A stretch of DNA of 45,519 nucleotides from contig JAAVHC010000041.1 of the NCBI GenBank assembly GCA_014799925.1, forward strand, positions 1 to 45,519. Reading direction: 5' to 3'. The notes under the pieces are model-generated. The model did no database searches. It was given only the letters and a program-made list of their open reading frames with translations, and was not told the origin of the DNA. A program made the position numbers and the translations under genes. Shown piece after piece: positions 12,503 through 45,519 of this stretch (position 1 is the first letter of the stretch; every line of letters begins with the position of its first letter). This DNA comes from Oscillibacter sp. (GTDB lineage: Bacteria; Bacillota; Clostridia; Oscillospirales; Oscillospiraceae).

Positions 12503-15133
12503 CTATTGCGAATTCTGCGCGGCCTTAATGATCGTGACGCTCCCACTGACATGGGCCAGCGCGCCGCCCTCCGTGTGAAGGAATAAACGGTACTCCCCCG
12601 GATCAACGGGGGATTTCCACATCATGGTCTCGGTCCTGACCTCCAGCTTTCCATCGGTTCTCCGGCAGGAAACCATATAGTAACGGACCTCCGGACTGGT
12701 CTGTCCCGGCTTGGCAAAGCCCACGTCCAACTGTTCCCCGCTTTCCGCGGAAACATTGTAGCAGACCCGGTCGCCCTCGTTCAGAGTATAGGTTCCCAGC
12801 CAGACGTATTCGCCGTCCTTCACCTTTTCAATACCCACGGGGACGGAGACGATCTCGCTGTTATCCCAGGCTTCATCCGGGCTGTCCCAGCCTTTATCCC
12901 GGGCTTCGCCCTCCGGAGCCTCCATATCGCCCAGCAGACTGGCTGCTTCCGCATCCGTCATACAGGCAGCGCCTGTAATCTTGTCGTCCGCGCTGCGGGT
13001 GATCCTGACGTTGACGGTTCCCTTGGGGTTCATGTCCAGTACATAGAAGGAGCCTCCCTTTCGGACGTCCAGGAAAATATTGACCAGCTGTCCCTGGTAG
13101 TAATAATTCTTGCCGTCCATCGTAACGCCTGCGGCCTGGTACTCCGCCCTCTGCGCCGCTTCCCATTCCTTTTCCCGCTGTTCTTCCAGTTCATCAAATT
13201 CATCATTCCGGTCCAGCTTATTGAACAGCATGGACTGGAAACTCCATTTTCCATCCTCCAGGGCCCTGTCCAGCCAGCGCTCCAGATCCGCTTTGTCCAT
13301 GCAGTCCGTCAGGGTGGAGAAAAACGCGATTTCTCCGTCCCCGTAGGCCCGTTCCGCGAAGGCGGCGATGAGCGGGTCGTCCCCGTCCAGTATTCTCACA
13401 GCGACGGAGAAGAAGGCAAAATCGTCTCCGGCGTAGAGCTTTTCCAGCCACTCCCCCTGCGCGGTCCCGTCCAGCCGGGAGAACGCGATTTGAAACAGCG
13501 GCAGACTGTCCGCCTCATAGTACCGTGCCGCCTCTGACAGGGGCGCTCCCGTGGTCTGGTCCTGCGTTATATCTTCACCCGTTTCTTTTGGATAGACGAA
13601 ATTATCATAGGAACGGCTCCCCTGGCCGATCGCAAGGACTGCTCCAACGGATTTCCCCTGAATATTTCCGCCCGCGCCTGCGATATCGTAATCCCGCATC
13701 GTGACATTATAAATATGCGCATTTTTGGCAACGCCGAACAGTCCAACGATCTCCGCGTCCGGGTCAGTCATGGTAAGCCCGATGATTTCAAAGCCGTTGC
13801 CGTTAAACGTGCCCGTAAACGGAGCGTCCCATGTCCCAATGGGCGCCCATTCATCCGTGGATAACCGAATATCCGCCTGCTGCATATAATTCCGATCCAT
13901 ACCATACTCGCCTGTGCCGATCGCTCTGAGCTGGGCTTCGTTATGAACTAAAAAGAATGTTTTCCCGTTGACATCCAGCGTTTCCATTGCTGGCGATTCC
14001 TCTGCCGCCGGAGAATGACCGGACTGTACCGGCAGCGGCTTTTCCGCGTTCGCCGGGTCGGACGCATCCGCCGCCGAGGCGGGATAAACGCCCACAAAAA
14101 CCGCGCAGAAGACCACGCACAGCGTCAGCGCGCCCGTTAAACACCGTGTCGCGGTTGACTTCTTTCTGAAATTCATAATTGCGCTTAACCTCTCTTTCAA
14201 TAGCCGCTTATTTTCGCTTAACGTGACAGCGCCGGGATTTTCCCTGTACTTTCCCACCGCCGCCATCGCGTCCAGCAGAGTTTGTCCATAGTCCTGCGCA
14301 TGGTCGTGCCCCATTTTTGCGAGGACTGCCTCGTCACAGGAAAATTCACAGGCGCTGGTGATTTCCCGGTTCATAAGATGCACCAGGGGATTGAACCAGT
14401 GCAGACAGACCGTAATCTGCGCCAGCCATTTGTAAAACATATCCCGCCGCCGGTAGTGCGTCAGCTCATGCAGCGCGATATACTGGAAATCCGTTTCGGG
14501 AATATCCGCGCCCGGCAGCACGATACACGGATGGAAAAAGCCAATCAGCAGCGGCGAAGAGACCAGCGGATTGACGCAAAGCTCCACCGGCGCCCGAACC
14601 CCTGCCCGCTCCGCGGCGGCGGAAAGGCGGTCCAGCATATCCACGTCGGAAACGGGGACCATCCCGGCGTGGATATATCGCACAAACCCCTGATAAATCG
14701 TTATTTTTCGTATCAGAAGACCCAGAGCGGCGGCCGGCCAAATCAGCCAGATGTGATCCGTCAGCCATGCCCCAATATCCTGACGCGGGGGAGCGGCTGT
14801 CAAGTTCTGTGCCGGGAGATTCGCCGATTCCTCCCCCTGCTCCGGACCGACGGACGAGACATGCGCGCCTTCCGGACCGGCAAGCGGGTTCTCCTGCCGC
14901 GTCGGAGGAGCGGCCCGGGTGATCGCCTGATCGACCGCCTGATAGGCTTTCCCCATCAGGCTTATTTCCGGGCTGAAGGGGAGCAGCAGCCGCAGAATGA
15001 CAAGGAGCCAGATGTAATACTGCCATTGCCGGCTGATCTTGTCCTTTAAAAACCGCTTTCCCAAAAGCAGCGTCAGGATAAGCAAGCCGCCGGAAAAGGA
15101 CATGGACAGGAATGTCTTCAAAATGGTGCTCAT
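12503..15133 (-). CDS. BlaR1-like M56 membrane metallopeptidase with large extracellular region
   Basis: This 876-residue protein has an N-terminal membrane module with helices near residues 8-25, 38-56 and 124-142 and the zinc motif HELTH (222-226) of M56 gluzincins, as in BlaR1/MecR1. After another helix near 335-357 the outer part begins. Residues about 395-510 look like a GLUG-type beta-helix (EWAPIGTWDAPFTGTFNGNG, then IVGLFGVAKNA). Later parts carry DGKNYYYQGQLVNIFLDVRK and a C-terminal beta domain ending PGEYRLFLHTEGGAL. It overlaps blaI by 4 bases. Presumably it senses an outside signal and cleaves the BlaI-like repressor. It has no penicillin-binding domain, so the signal is probably not a beta-lactam. 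Confidence 0.9.
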   Translation of the reverse strand: MSTILKTFLSMSFSGGLLILTLLLGKRFLKDKISRQWQYYIWLLVILRLLLPFSPEISLMGKAYQAVDQAITRAAPPTRQENPLAGPEGAHVSSVGPEQGEESANLPAQNLTAAPPRQDIGAWLTDHIWLIWPAAALGLLIRKITIYQGFVRYIHAGMVPVSDVDMLDRLSAAAERAGVRAPVELCVNPLVSSPLLIGFFHPCIVLPGADIPETDFQYIALHELTHYRRRDMFYKWLAQITVCLHWFNPLVHLMNREITSACEFSCDEAVLAKMGHDHAQDYGQTLLDAMAAVGKYRENPGAVTLSENKRLLKERLSAIMNFRKKSTATRCLTGALTLCVVFCAVFVGVYPASAADASDPANAEKPLPVQSGHSPAAEESPAMETLDVNGKTFFLVHNEAQLRAIGTGEYGMDRNYMQQADIRLSTDEWAPIGTWDAPFTGTFNGNGFEIIGLTMTDPDAEIVGLFGVAKNAHIYNVTMRDYDIAGAGGNIQGKSVGAVLAIGQGSRSYDNFVYPKETGEDITQDQTTGAPLSEAARYYEADSLPLFQIAFSRLDGTAQGEWLEKLYAGDDFAFFSVAVRILDGDDPLIAAFAERAYGDGEIAFFSTLTDCMDKADLERWLDRALEDGKWSFQSMLFNKLDRNDEFDELEEQREKEWEAAQRAEYQAAGVTMDGKNYYYQGQLVNIFLDVRKGGSFYVLDMNPKGTVNVRITRSADDKITGAACMTDAEAASLLGDMEAPEGEARDKGWDSPDEAWDNSEIVSVPVGIEKVKDGEYVWLGTYTLNEGDRVCYNVSAESGEQLDVGFAKPGQTSPEVRYYMVSCRRTDGKLEVRTETMMWKSPVDPGEYRLFLHTEGGALAHVSGSVTIIKAAQNSQ

Positions 15134-15513
15134 GACTCCTCCGACCCTTTCTTCAGCAGGCTTTTCAGCTCCTCGTACTCCTCGTCTGACAGCAAATCGT
15201 CCAGAATCAGATTGGAAACCAGACCTTTCGCACTTCCCTCATAGATTTTTGCCAGGAAGTGCTTCGTCTGCGCCGTCTGGTATTCCGATTCTGAAACGAG
15301 GGCGGTATATTCATTGCGCCGGCCGATTTTCCTGGCGCTCAGAAAGCCCTTGTGAACCAGCCGGGACAAAAGCACAATCAGGGTATTCTTCTGACACGGT
15401 TTGCCCCTGGCCGCCAGAGCGTCCATGATGTAGGGAAACAGCGTTACCTCCGACTGGCTGCCCCATACGATTTTCATAATTTCCAGTTCGGCGTCAGAGA
15501 TTTGCTGCGGCAT
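15130..15513 (-). CDS. BlaI/MecI/CopY family repressor
   Basis: A 127-residue winged-helix repressor. QQISDAELEIMKIVW is the standard N-terminus, KNTLIVLLSRLVHKGFL the recognition helix and wing, and the C-terminal helices dimerise. The ATG at 15511-15513 has AAGGAGG 7 bases upstream, while the longer in-frame extension starts inside the operator. It is the first gene of a pair with the M56 protease that likely inactivates it. Confidence 0.94.
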   Translation of the reverse strand: MPQQISDAELEIMKIVWGSQSEVTLFPYIMDALAARGKPCQKNTLIVLLSRLVHKGFLSARKIGRRNEYTALVSESEYQTAQTKHFLAKIYEGSAKGLVSNLILDDLLSDEEYEELKSLLKKGSEES

Positions 15514-41714: not shown

Positions 41715-41790
<76 letters not shown>

Positions 41791-41837
41791 AAAAGAAGGA
41801 CTCATGTAGCCAATAAAGGCACATGAGTCCTTCTTTT
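41791..41837 (+). terminator. Terminator of tRNA-Ala
   Basis: A 17-bp perfect stem (41791-41807 with 41821-41837) begins right after CCA and ends in CTTTTATT. Confidence 0.9.
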
Positions 41838-42654
41838 ATTCCTCAAAGAATCTGAGCGGATATTTGATCCTGAGCAGGGATTTTCGATGGCAGTAACGGC
41901 CTACTAATCCTTGATTAAAAGTTCCAATTTGTATTCCACACCTGTACGACAGGGATACAAGGAAACGCAGTAAAAACTTTGGATGTTTTAATTGTGGAAT
42001 AGTATAACAAATCCTTTCATCTATGTGGCACTGATGAAATGCGCTACTATTTAATCATCTCCAAATCCGATTGTCCGAATATTAACATAATACGTCATTC
42101 CGTTTTTCAACAAATTGTGATAACATAATTTATTACTTATAGAAAGGACTGTCCTCGTATGTAAGTATGACCTTGTGCTATCTAAAATATTTAGTTATCT
42201 TATATATAAATGCGAAACAAGATTGAAAGGTATCCGCCGTGGGGGAAGAGGTTCCCAGAATTGCAGCTGTTTTTATAACAGGGCAGCGCACAGCCCGTTT
42301 AGGTGCTTTGGCGATTGGTTGCCAGCTCGTACTGCATATATGAAGAAATGTAGACAGACAGCAACTGCTGGTCAAGGAAGCTCCATCGGAATTTTCGGTT
42401 GGAATATTTCATAAGGTAGAGTAAGGTGGTGTAAAGAGCAGATTCAGCCTAAGCTTAACTGGACTGGCGTGAAATTAATATAGACCTCTTGCTTATTGTT
42501 TGACTGATCCAGGCTTTTGCGGCAAGCTTTTTTTACTTAATGCAAGCATAAGATGATGAGAATAGGCCAATGGCTAAATATTCTTATATTAAAGGGTATG
42601 GTATAATCAATTTAAAATTTCAGTGACAATTAATCTGGATGGGGGATCAGGAGA
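41838..42654. other. AT-rich gene-poor spacer, about 0.8 kb
   Basis: I find no supported gene. Short protein-like runs occur, for example about 35 codons from a GTG near 42239 reading EEVPRIAAVFITGQRTARLG to a stop near 42345, but without a ribosome site or recognisable family. They may be decayed coding sequence. The composition is clearly more AT-rich than the left 41 kb. Confidence 0.5.
42599..42607 (+). promoter_or_regulatory. Extended -10 promoter of the HD-ATPase gene
   Basis: TGGTATAAT with TATAAT at 42602-42607 and the TG extension. No good -35 is visible. The predicted leader is about 40 bases. Confidence 0.6.
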
Positions 42655-45519
42655 ATGTCAGAACAGGATTTGTACATAAAAAACAGCTGGGCACCTGGGG
42701 CCTATACAATTGAACTGCAATTGAAGCTGTATGCCAAATCAGAAGAGGCAACAGAACGTCACCAGGTTCTCTGGCATGCCTGGAATCAAAATAAGCGGTG
42801 GTTGTCACAAATGCTGGAGTGGACTCTCCCGTCCTTTCAAAACTATAGCTATCATAACTCCACCCATGCGGATTCCGTTCTGCACAATATTGAGCGGCTT
42901 TTGGGCGAGGAGAGGATCCGTCAGCTGTCCGCGTCAGACTGCTTCATGCTTTTACATGCCGCCTATATGCATGATGTAGGTATGAGCATTTCAGCGGCTG
43001 AACGCCAGGAAATGATGCGGGACGATAAATTTATTGACTTGATTGAGCATTTGGAGTTAGAGGGCGACCAGGACATGCGAAAGGCCGCAAAAAGCGTACT
43101 GCAAACAAGTTATACAACCTATGCGGAATCATCTACCAGAATGCGGTCCCAGAAGCTGAAAGGACTGCTGGATGAGAAATTAAACAGCTATTACGGATTA
43201 GGTCAATTAATGGCAGAATACCAGCGGGGGATGCACGCGGAAAAAGTTAAGGAAAGAATGCAGCGGTGGACCTTGGATCCAGATAAGTTAGGGAACAGTT
43301 TTTCCGTATCGGGAATTCCTCTCCGCATTTTTATGCGAATTGCGGATTGCGCCGCTATTCATACCACCAGCGGAATTAAGCCCGTCCTGGCGCTGCCGAA
43401 AGAAGACAGCGGATATGTCCTGGATATGATTCATCCCCGGTTCGTGGCGGTGATGTTGCAGCTGGGGGACGCATTGGATATGGACAATGACAGGTTCAAT
43501 CCATTTTGTTTTGAGTTTGCGAGCAGCTTTCCGCAAACTTCCAGGATGCACTTTAAAAAGCATCAGGCGATACGCCAGTTAAATATTACATCGAATATCA
43601 TTCAAATTCATGCAGATTGCAATTCCCAGGAAGTTCTCCGCCTGGTAAGGATGGAATGTGAGGGACTGGAGGAAATCCTGAAAAATGCAAGCTACCACTG
43701 GGTGGATATTGCACCCGCCGGAATGTCGGGATGCCTGCCAACCTTGGACCAAAATAAGATCCTGCTTGGGGGACAGCAGGTGCCGGTTGAGCTGGTTAAG
43801 GCGCAGTTCAATATCTCCCAGGTACGGGCTTTTCGGCTATTGGAAGGCGCAAACGTATATGGCGGTAATTATGTATTCCTGCGGGAAATTATTCAAAATG
43901 CCATTGACGCCAGCAAAATGCAGTGCTGGGAGGATTATATATATCGTTGCAAGCTGAAAGAGCGGGAAATTCTCCAAGACAGTTTTGAAACGGTGGAATA
44001 TGGTTTAAATGCCAGCGAAAAGGAAATATTATCCGAAATAAATGTGTGGGACTATCCTATTGAGATTTATTTTGAACCAGGTGTCAAGGTTCAAAACAAG
44101 GAGGAAGAGAGCAAGTTTATTCCGATCGAAGAAATCGAAGATATACGGAAAGTAAACGGAGTATATGGCGTTAAAGTGATTATAAGAGACCACGGGACAG
44201 GCATATCAAAGGACGATTTGATTAAGATCTCCAATGTGGGCAGCAGCTATGAGGAAAAGAAACATTTTATTGATAAAATGCCGGATTGGCTGAAACCAAC
44301 AGGGCAATTTGGGATAGGGCTGCAATCCGTATTTCTGGTTGTGGATACCGTAACTGCAAAAACCTATACCAGAAGCGGAGAGAAATATGAAATCACTTTT
44401 AATAAAGTATCCAACGGAAGCGGTGGCTATATCAATGTCAAGCCGCTGCCACAGGACGAATATATTATATTTGGCACCACATTTGAAATATTTGTGAACA
44501 ATAAATATAAAATGCCTCATGCGGATTTCTGGAATGCCTGGAATACCGAGAGCGATGATGCAGACAGATTTATAGACGAGTACGATGAGAAAAGGCCTGT
44601 CCGTCACTCGCTGGAAATGCTGAATCAAATGGTCCTGTACATAGACGGTATGCTGGGAGAAAACCTGTTCCCAATTTATGTCAGGATTAAGGGGAAATCG
44701 TTTGATAGAAGCCGTTGTGATTTTTTAGCTCGCCGGATAACGAAAATTGCTCTGGAAACAGATACGGTGCCTCTGGAAAAGGCGGACCAGGAGAAAAACG
44801 TGAGCTGGTTGTTTAAAGCTATCCAGCCGAAAGAAAACAATGCTGTGCCGGCCGACAATCAAAACCTGATAATTGTCGATATAAAGAGCGGAATTGGCGC
44901 TCTGGACTGTGAACATGCCAAACTGTATATTTGGAATAGTGAATTGGGGGTATTTGCAAGATTTGGTGGTGGCAGAATGCTGTCTACCGATTCCTCTGTA
45001 TTGCGCGTCAGAGAAGCGGGCGCACAGGATAAACGCAAAACGCAAATCTATCTGAAAGGCATTCTGGTAGCAAGCCACTGTATGTATCAGGATAGTGAGC
45101 TGCTGGAGCTGATCGATATTAAGGGCGGGAAAATTGGAAAGGCTCATATTGCAATCAATCGAAATGAATTTACCAAGGAGGGCATTGATTATATAGAGCG
45201 GCAAATATATCCTGCACTGATTGCTTCCGCAAAGGAAGTGCTCGTGGAATTGAATGAACGAGAGAATCAATCGAAAGATCATAAACTCATTGACGGACAG
45301 GAATCTGTTCCTTTCTATCAGAAGATTATGAAATCCATTTATAGAAAGACTGCTCTATGCGAATGTGCAGAAGCAAACATAGGTGAGTGTAAGGCGGATT
45401 TGGAAGAAACGGTGCTGTCAGCTATTGGACTGTCCTATTTTATACGGATTTTAGGCAAAGAGAAAAAAATGTTTTGCGAAAAGGTAGGACAGGAAGATAT
45501 ATGCCAGTGGGATATTTTG
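42655..45519 (+). CDS. HD domain - GHKL (HSP90/MORC-like) ATPase fusion, 3' end beyond the window
   Basis: From ATG 42655 the frame stays open for 955 codons to the window edge. Residues about 60-280 form an HD hydrolase-like domain: H67/H71 in YHNSTHADSV, H106-D107 in LLHAAYMHDVGM, and D272 in MLQLGDALDMDNDRF. Residues about 385-700 form a GHKL ATPase: N-box FLREIIQNAIDAS (E411, N415), G1 box RDHGTGIS (512-517) and G2 box GQFGIGLQS (550-558). The rest is mixed alpha/beta, with a HSP90-like middle domain possible. AGGAGA sits almost on the ATG, an unusually short spacing. The gene is AT-rich and follows tRNA-Ala. Role inferred: nucleotide- or ATP-driven conflict protein; partners are not visible. 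Confidence 0.9.
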   Translation, partial: MSEQDLYIKNSWAPGAYTIELQLKLYAKSEEATERHQVLWHAWNQNKRWLSQMLEWTLPSFQNYSYHNSTHADSVLHNIERLLGEERIRQLSASDCFMLLHAAYMHDVGMSISAAERQEMMRDDKFIDLIEHLELEGDQDMRKAAKSVLQTSYTTYAESSTRMRSQKLKGLLDEKLNSYYGLGQLMAEYQRGMHAEKVKERMQRWTLDPDKLGNSFSVSGIPLRIFMRIADCAAIHTTSGIKPVLALPKEDSGYVLDMIHPRFVAVMLQLGDALDMDNDRFNPFCFEFASSFPQTSRMHFKKHQAIRQLNITSNIIQIHADCNSQEVLRLVRMECEGLEEILKNASYHWVDIAPAGMSGCLPTLDQNKILLGGQQVPVELVKAQFNISQVRAFRLLEGANVYGGNYVFLREIIQNAIDASKMQCWEDYIYRCKLKEREILQDSFETVEYGLNASEKEILSEINVWDYPIEIYFEPGVKVQNKEEESKFIPIEEIEDIRKVNGVYGVKVIIRDHGTGISKDDLIKISNVGSSYEEKKHFIDKMPDWLKPTGQFGIGLQSVFLVVDTVTAKTYTRSGEKYEITFNKVSNGSGGYINVKPLPQDEYIIFGTTFEIFVNNKYKMPHADFWNAWNTESDDADRFIDEYDEKRPVRHSLEMLNQMVLYIDGMLGENLFPIYVRIKGKSFDRSRCDFLARRITKIALETDTVPLEKADQEKNVSWLFKAIQPKENNAVPADNQNLIIVDIKSGIGALDCEHAKLYIWNSELGVFARFGGGRMLSTDSSVLRVREAGAQDKRKTQIYLKGILVASHCMYQDSELLELIDIKGGKIGKAHIAINRNEFTKEGIDYIERQIYPALIASAKEVLVELNERENQSKDHKLIDGQESVPFYQKIMKSIYRKTALCECAEANIGECKADLEETVLSAIGLSYFIRILGKEKKMFCEKVGQEDICQWDIL

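Follow-up and report, generated by a model that had tools for sequence, protein, structure and literature searches.

The stretch of DNA analysed here, called the window below, comprises 45,519 nucleotides of the forward strand of contig JAAVHC010000041.1 from the Oscillibacter sp. assembly GCA_014799925.1 and ends inside a large open reading frame (ORF) that joins an HD-type hydrolase domain to an ATPase in a single chain, which union raises the question of what purpose such a protein would serve. We consider it probable that the gene is the core of a conflict system in which an Hsp90-like module gates an HD-CE effector, and that the action of this system is most likely anti-phage and abortive.

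An HD-CE domain in an open frame

A preliminary description of this DNA, made from its letters alone, had pointed to one frame of at least 955 codons at the end of the window, and the frame indeed begins with an ATG at position 42655 and continues free of stops to the last base (955 codons, 2865 bases). Since the window maps to C13:1-45519 of the source assembly (2.97 Mb, 84 contigs) and the frame is open to the window's end, we take the truncation to be the end of the assembled contig; and because the full-length sister protein of locus L038 measures 1514 amino acids, the window gene is probably some 1.7 kb longer than the part that is seen. The C-terminus of L038 gave 0 matches elsewhere in the source assembly, in a search run without a positive control, so that this empty answer proves little.

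In a hidden-Markov-model (HMM) scan against Pfam, amino acids 61-326 matched the HD-CE family (PF24391) with an E-value of 2.1e-39 and 136 bits, against a cutoff of 27. The metal-site residues that had been read from the frame at the outset (H67, H71, H106, D107 and D272) are all present, and are invariant in the 38 rows of the alignment described below. As to the initial comparison with dGTPases, no dGTPase or general HD model of Pfam matched the HD part of the window protein, which returned only HD-CE and a weak, sub-cutoff similarity to PDEase_I over amino acids 66-109 (E 0.0036); and, because HD-CE already stands in Pfam, the HD part is not new. The HD part of a relative, L053, had no match by sequence in the PDB. 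The only PADLOC models reported for the window protein were RT_UG24, on the HD part (6.6e-9), and three TmtA models. As a separate observation, the RT_UG24 match, to the PADLOC model of the UG24 reverse transcriptase (a DRT), covers the HD part (window 42835-43632), and because of that match some defence reverse transcriptases may share the same HD-type domain with the window protein.

The ATPase is of the Hsp90 type

The second part of the chain carries the three GHKL boxes that had been proposed (E411/N415, D512-x-G-x-G516 and G553-x-G555), and separate HMM searches agree in placing the HD and GHKL parts in one protein. The best-scoring models for the ATPase, over amino acids ~505-617, were those of Hsp90 and HtpG (1.1e-9 and 2.5e-9; NCBIfam), far below their equivalog cutoffs, and an identity as the HtpG chaperone itself was rejected at 36.2 bits against a cutoff of 371. 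The Pfam cutoffs were likewise missed, by HATPase_c_3 with 23.9 against 25 bits and by HATPase_c with 12.7 against 26.4; three of the eight relatives scanned passed that of HATPase_c_3 (25.8-29 bits). When the 38-row alignment was used as a profile, it aligned to the solved yeast Hsc82 and Hsp82 across both the N-terminal and the middle domain (7.9e-15 and 3.5e-14), with the N-box of the family, REliQNAiDA, opposite the RELISNASDA of yeast Hsp90, and with R836, a near-invariant column, opposite the arginine of LNLSREML, which residue we take to be the catalytic, gamma-phosphate-sensing Arg380 of Hsp82. As regards a C-terminal dimerisation domain like that of Hsp90, the alignment to Hsp90 stops at profile position 857. 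To judge by these matches the ATPase is of the Hsp90 type, with N-terminal and middle domains, and is not MutL-like, so that the analogy first drawn with the MutL-like component of Mza is not supported; the four PADLOC families reported included none named for Mza, the presence of such a model in the library not having been checked. A separate frame of 646 amino acids with a weak ATPase match, on contig C44 of the source genome, is taken for that genome's HtpG.

Conservation and selection

The alignment (A5) holds the window protein and 37 relatives of 22-79% identity to it; L043, L057, L073 and L077, of the 41 loci found by pattern, and the loci found by other means were left out. As the search used peptide patterns around HPR[FY]VA and MP.W..P[TS], the conservation counts are conditioned on those patterns, and the residues within them (such as H260 and the MP.W motif) were not counted as evidence because the loci had been found through them; the HD and GHKL residues that were counted lie outside. 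Besides the metal-site residues, H194, H236, D275, H299, K302 and H303 were without variation in all 38 rows, as were E411, Q414, N415, D418, D512, G516, G553 and G555 in the ATPase; G514 was kept in 36 of the 38 and replaced by alanine in the other two. Between the window gene and its nearest relative, L038, the nonsynonymous divergence (dN) was 0.135 (946 codons, 78.5% identical amino acids) and the synonymous divergence (dS) could not be estimated by the program, as happens with saturated synonymous change, which combination indicates strong purifying selection on the frame.

The operon in the sister loci

In a 43-row tree of the HD-CE-Hsp90 core, the window gene and L038-L042 form a six-row clade with a support of 100 in the Shimodaira-Hasegawa-like approximate likelihood-ratio test (SH-aLRT). 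In four of the five sisters (L038-L041) an ImmA/IrrE-like (M78) gene lies directly downstream, the two genes overlapping by up to 11 bp or standing up to 22 bp apart. The Pfam family Peptidase_M78 was passed by the partner in L041 (4.2e-9), with weak scores for those of L039 and L040 and none for that of L038; in a leave-one-out test over 713 genes, each of the four was nevertheless recovered at ≤1e-30 when the model was built from the remaining three, and genes of other loci gave no hit. The HExxH motif is kept only in the L041 partner (HELCH) and is lost in those of L038, L039 and L040. No M78 partner was found on the plasmids or viral contigs searched. In the PDB the M78-partner profile matched the CapP toxin alone (0.022), and this match was set aside as weak.

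A DUF4231/SLATT gene follows in L038 and L039 and lies divergently on the other side in L041, these three loci holding both partners. All three proteins passed the DUF4231 cutoff; that of SLATT_1 was reached by L038 by 0.1 bit and missed by L039 and L041. The SLATT-type partners have two or more hydrophobic segments, and their homology as a set passes the leave-one-out test. Elsewhere in the family, a SLATT-type gene lies at L048:10013-16576 between the HD-CE-Hsp90 gene and a second gene, whose start was read by eye as HD-CE. Among the sub-cutoff matches set aside were a Scabin-like (0.0045) and a SLATT_5 (0.00074) match of the protein encoded upstream in L040, together with those to T9SS plug, YjcQ, Sacsin, Phi-29 GP16.7 and other Pfam families.

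Beyond the HD-CE and Hsp90-like parts, the C-terminal extension of L038 matched no Pfam family above cutoff and, from about amino acid 796, has only 19-22% identity to the same part of L039-L042; for the window part, the identity to L039-L042 is 39-42%. The L038 cassette itself stands between two 95%-identical copies of 1065 bp (L038:5666-6730 and 14155-15216), beside a Y2 transposase (Pfam), which copies are read, from their sequence, as probably coding for a tyrosine integrase. The three genes look as if they had been inserted into an integrase unit or copied along with one.

Foreign origin and patchy occurrence

The G+C content (GC) of the window is 0.599 up to the end of the tRNA gene that precedes the fusion gene, 0.381 in the leader between the two and 0.444 in the fusion gene, whose GC at third codon positions (GC3) is 0.491, against 0.818 in trpS and 0.733 in spo0A. 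The closest relative, L038, belongs to Lachnospiraceae bacterium C64_1; over the part common to both proteins its identity to the window protein is 79%, whereas between the two genomes TrpS shares only 58% and Spo0A only 46%. Because GC3 is low and the 79% lies far above the identities of TrpS and Spo0A, the gene is, on this comparison of sequences, foreign and horizontally acquired.

Genome searches with a profile of the clade considered no more than two candidates in each genome and can therefore have missed members. In the same family the profile matched 8 of 400 genomes at 1e-10, the source genome included; apart from that genome, both domains were matched only in G226, five showed a short HD stretch, and G1056 matched over positions 262-423. 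Among the genomes of the same genus shown besides the source, eight gave no match and G1056 only its weak, partial one. At 1e-15 the profile matched 1 of 394 genomes of the order and 3 of 391 of the class, again with the source genome included, and HD-CE was found in 11 of 398 genomes of the phylum (source included) and in 0 of 14 control genomes. A first search of the family, in 250 genomes, listed 47, most places being ATPase-only matches in frames of ~610-680 amino acids, which frames are taken for HtpG; among the matches listed, the HD part and the ATPase boxes stood in one frame only in the source genome (G000) and G226.

Relatives were found on four plasmid records, two of them of L. eligens, and on one phage record, the same in both searches; E. 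coli genomes were searched at the DNA level with the L078 gene in near mode and with the L069 gene in distant mode, and neither gene was matched. A further viral-contig relative, at L121:8001-9524, was found with the clade alignment (HD-CE 8.5e-45). The cores of L050 and L052 are nearly identical, with short tree branches, in contigs labelled as an archaeal and a Campylobacteraceae metagenome-assembled genome, which near-identity reflects either mis-binning or very recent transfer.

A probable island site at tRNA-Ala

The link to a tRNA gene and an AT-rich segment, put forward from the start, is borne out: a tRNA-Ala(GGC) gene precedes the fusion gene, whose start lies 865 bp further on, and the GC drops from 0.60 to 0.44 (Table 1). 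The leader holds no ORF of at least 80 amino acids and no match to L038-L042. An exact copy of the last 60 bp of the tRNA gene occurs elsewhere in the source genome (L135), where it adjoins a type I restriction-modification (RM) system with HsdM, HsdS and HsdR (Pfam). On the other side of that copy a frame was read by eye as a trkA-like end, and a short frame beside the repeat, by eye a recombinase fragment, had no Pfam match and is not claimed. In G1192 (L115; G1192:C27, 1184-11999) the same spo0A-tRNA-Ala junction leads into AT-rich DNA bounded at its far end by another copy of the tRNA-Ala, identical over 72 bp, beyond which lie a DNA methylase and a ResIII-type protein, by family a type III RM pair. 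A weak match to a NACHT N-terminal domain (NNH7) was observed inside that insert. In G122, DNA of 47% GC extends from the junction to the end of the contig; G184, G1056, G1187 and G1191 had no tRNA in the stretch examined. Because the copies and junctions in the source genome and G1192 adjoin RM systems, the tRNA-Ala gene looks like an island site in the genus, one that would also receive restriction systems.

Table 1. Positions in the window of the fusion gene, its parts and the segment that precedes it.
Feature	Position	Strand	Remarks
HD-CE-Hsp90 fusion gene	42655..45519	+	955 codons; 3' end lost at contig end; based on ORF call, HMMs and full-length sister L038
HD-CE hydrolase domain	42835..43632	+	amino acids 61-326; PF24391, 2.1e-39
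HD metal-site codons	H67 42853; H71 42865; H106-D107 42970-42975; D272 43468	+	
Hsp90-like N-terminal ATPase	43807..44514	+	amino acids ~385-620; E411/N415/D418, D512xGxG, GxG 553-555; limits approximate
Hsp90 middle-domain-like region	44515..45264	+	amino acids ~621-870; R836 codon 45160-45162; limits approximate
tRNA-Ala(GGC)	41715..41790	+	3' 60 bp (41731-41790) repeated exactly at G000:C46:8161-8220
AT-rich leader, tRNA to gene	41791..42654	.	GC 0.381

One core with changing partners

To see what accompanies the core in the family, the context was counted in 37 of the 43 tree rows, the window, L005 (at zero tree distance from L067) and four rows with short flanks being left out. The type of accessory gene tracks the tree, with 3 state changes against 10-14 in 500 shuffles of the labels, the M78 type falling in one clade, and in 23 of the 37 rows no partner of the three counted types is present. 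In a second clade (L058, L063, L064, L067 and L068) genes of histidine-kinase type and receiver-like genes stand directly upstream; the kinase combines HATPase_c with a weak PocR, and the receiver-like gene was read by eye, the one scanned having no Pfam match. Such genes may provide a two-component-like input to an HD-CE-Hsp90 switch. HATPase and REC both figure in the domains that DefensePredictor lists for its predicted systems (PMC13092281). In a third clade (L056, L059, L070, L072 and L074) the upstream gene carries a PRTase-like motif (VLIDDS), its Pribosyltran match of 0.025 being below cutoff, and mostly between that gene and the core is one of ~150-220 amino acids with no assigned function.

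Some members occupy places that are themselves defence-like. In L069, whose stretch is also that of viral contig L077, and in L078, a P2-type gpA and the gpQ portal gene flank the HD-CE-Hsp90 gene, and a cos-proximal defence hotspot of P2 phages has been described between gpA and gpQ (PMC9122126). These P2-prophage versions are compact, at 912-918 amino acids. In L052 the gene is the last of a type I RM operon, and its start is overlapped by the HsdS frame; in L041 type I RM genes lie downstream, two genes away; and in L051 a type III/II-like methylase adjoins upstream.

Weighing the readings

A number of results weigh against an anti-phage core of this kind. The window protein as a whole matched no PADLOC model. 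Within the sister clade, L042 has neither partner and L040 offers only the weak SLATT_5 match upstream; that the partner genes also follow the window gene in the source organism we infer from the sisters, the contig ending inside the fusion gene. In Acinetobacter (L054, L055, L061 and L075) the gene occupies one fixed chromosomal place, beside fadBA-like genes (by eye), and there looks like a resident gene. The surroundings of the family were tallied over 126 of 141 nearest neighbour genes from 37 loci, after removal of 12 genes (of three Acinetobacter loci with the context of L054) and of three longer than 840 amino acids; partner genes, genes under 180 amino acids and the loci L005, L043, L050, L057, L073 and L077 had been left out earlier. 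Each of the 25 PADLOC models listed, among 109 matched, matched only two neighbour genes, and all 25 belong to type I/II RM or the related mad2/mad5; in a smaller control, of 56 core-region genes, the only matches were two to mad3. The enrichment in defence genes is thus real in places but small, and enrichment of the classic defence-island kind is weak, because the listed models each matched only two of the 126 genes. In the neighbour survey that the preliminary description had proposed, RM genes stand beside some homologues, and known defence genes are near few relatives only.

Of the other explanations, a specialised chaperone or stress-signalling role seems to us unlikely. There, the Hsp90-like module would remodel a client and the HD part would end a response by degrading a second messenger (a cyclic nucleotide or an alarmone), with no antiviral role, in keeping with the Hsp90-like N-terminal and middle domains, the sub-cutoff PDEase_I similarity (E 0.0036), the signalling setting of the histidine-kinase and receiver-like operons in one clade, and the fixed Acinetobacter location; yet the patchy occurrence (order 1/394, class 3/391; HD-CE 11/398 in the phylum and 0/14 in controls), the mobile elements, the P2 hotspot and the transfer between distant lineages argue otherwise. 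ImmA/IrrE genes often act as regulators in mobile elements, and this circumstance, along with a partner gene overlapping or within 22 bp and the plasmid and integrase settings, would fit a toxin-antitoxin-like or plasmid- or island-maintenance module, whose toxin (HD-CE-Hsp90, or the SLATT protein) would be held by its partners in the service of the element's upkeep; against it, the accessory type differs by clade and 23 of the 37 rows have no counted partner type, small antitoxin-sized neighbours not having been searched for, and we think this explanation quite improbable. We give still less credence to a nucleic-acid hydrolase, in which the HD part would be a Cas3-like nuclease loaded by an Hsp90-type clamp. 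HD sites in Cas3 and Cas10 do act on nucleic acids and RM genes are neighbours in three loci, but no helicase or nucleic-acid-binding domain scored above cutoff in the nine proteins scanned, and Pfam places the HD part in HD-CE.

Proposed mechanism

The reading that we prefer remains that of an Hsp90-gated HD-CE conflict system. In such a system HD-CE would be the effector, a metal-dependent phosphohydrolase cleaving nucleotides, and the Hsp90-like N-terminal and middle domains would form a clamp driven by ATP, restraining the effector and then letting it go, thereby playing the part of STAND/NACHT modules elsewhere; the assignment of effector and switch follows the analogy with VcSduA and CloA, discussed below. 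The ATP-gated switch on a hydrolase that had been suggested at first thus stands as the most economical mechanism, with the gating itself argued by analogy. The C-terminal extension (~560 amino acids, lost here and more diverged) would sense or relay the infection cue, a function that its divergence suits. The ImmA/IrrE-like partner, with its metal site lost in three of four, may equally sense or relay such a cue, the decay of HExxH suiting binding and not cleavage; and the two-transmembrane SLATT-type protein would be a second, membrane-permeabilising effector. A fuller scheme, which we find conceivable but doubtful, joins all three genes in a two-effector abortive infection, in which the Hsp90-like clamp, the fast-diverging C-terminal extension as phage sensor and a catalytically dead ImmA/IrrE relay would simultaneously make HD-CE destroy nucleotides and SLATT open the membrane.

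The candidate new defence system of the preliminary description therefore keeps its accessory, mobile and defence-like setting (tRNA site, plasmids, P2 hotspot, some RM neighbours) and loses its novelty in the HD part, an already described family. If the preferred reading is true, a chaperone-type ATPase would be the switch of a bacterial immune receptor, in parallel to the NLR switches and in place of a STAND ATPase, and the same core would be combined with no fewer than three kinds of neighbouring gene: pseudo-peptidase plus SLATT type, histidine kinase plus receiver-like, and PRTase-like. No experimental work on HD-CE-Hsp90 proteins, phage protection included, was found in the literature searched, and the compact P2-prophage versions make the idea directly accessible to plating assays.

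Comparison with known systems

A close parallel for the switch is VcSduA (Shedu), in which the authors suppose a nuclease to be governed by a GHKL domain of the same polypeptide, and for which phage protection was measured (PMC12137116). The window protein would share with it a GHKL ATPase controlling an effector within one chain, and differs in that the effector of VcSduA is the nuclease DUF4263 instead of an HD domain and that its ATPase is N-terminal (PMC12137116). For the effector, Clover CloA is an HD deoxynucleotide triphosphohydrolase used in defence (PMC12265719), and the likeness lies in an HD enzyme acting on the nucleotide pool as an antiviral effector, as is proposed for the window protein; CloA, however, has a nucleotidyltransferase partner and an N-terminal HD domain with a helical bundle, and the excerpted part of that source describes no Hsp90 module (PMC12265719). 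Compared with HtpG/Hsp90 chaperones, the window protein has the same ATPase boxes and middle-domain arginine, but adds an N-terminal HD-CE and falls far below the HtpG cutoff (36 vs 371 bits). The two-transmembrane SLATT effectors (Pfam SLATT_1, DUF4231) have their counterparts in the DUF4231/SLATT proteins encoded in the sister loci, with the difference that these genes stand beside an HD-CE-Hsp90 gene, the usual partner being, by name, the SMODS cyclase.

The closest class is that of HD-CE effectors and HSP90-module conflict systems. The NAR article of Nicastro et al. (2023) is reported to have established HD-CE, PRTase-CE and calcineurin-CE, to have likened HSP90/HSP70 modules to STAND and to have described HD-CE/HSP90 conflict systems, to which published class the present system would belong as a three-gene variant. 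The HD-CE domain, its HSP90-like coupling and the gene with a PRTase-like motif beside one of the clades are common to both, whereas the family described here is distinguished by the large size of its single chain, by the divergence of the C-terminal extension and, in the sisters of the window gene, by ImmA/IrrE-like and SLATT-type neighbours.

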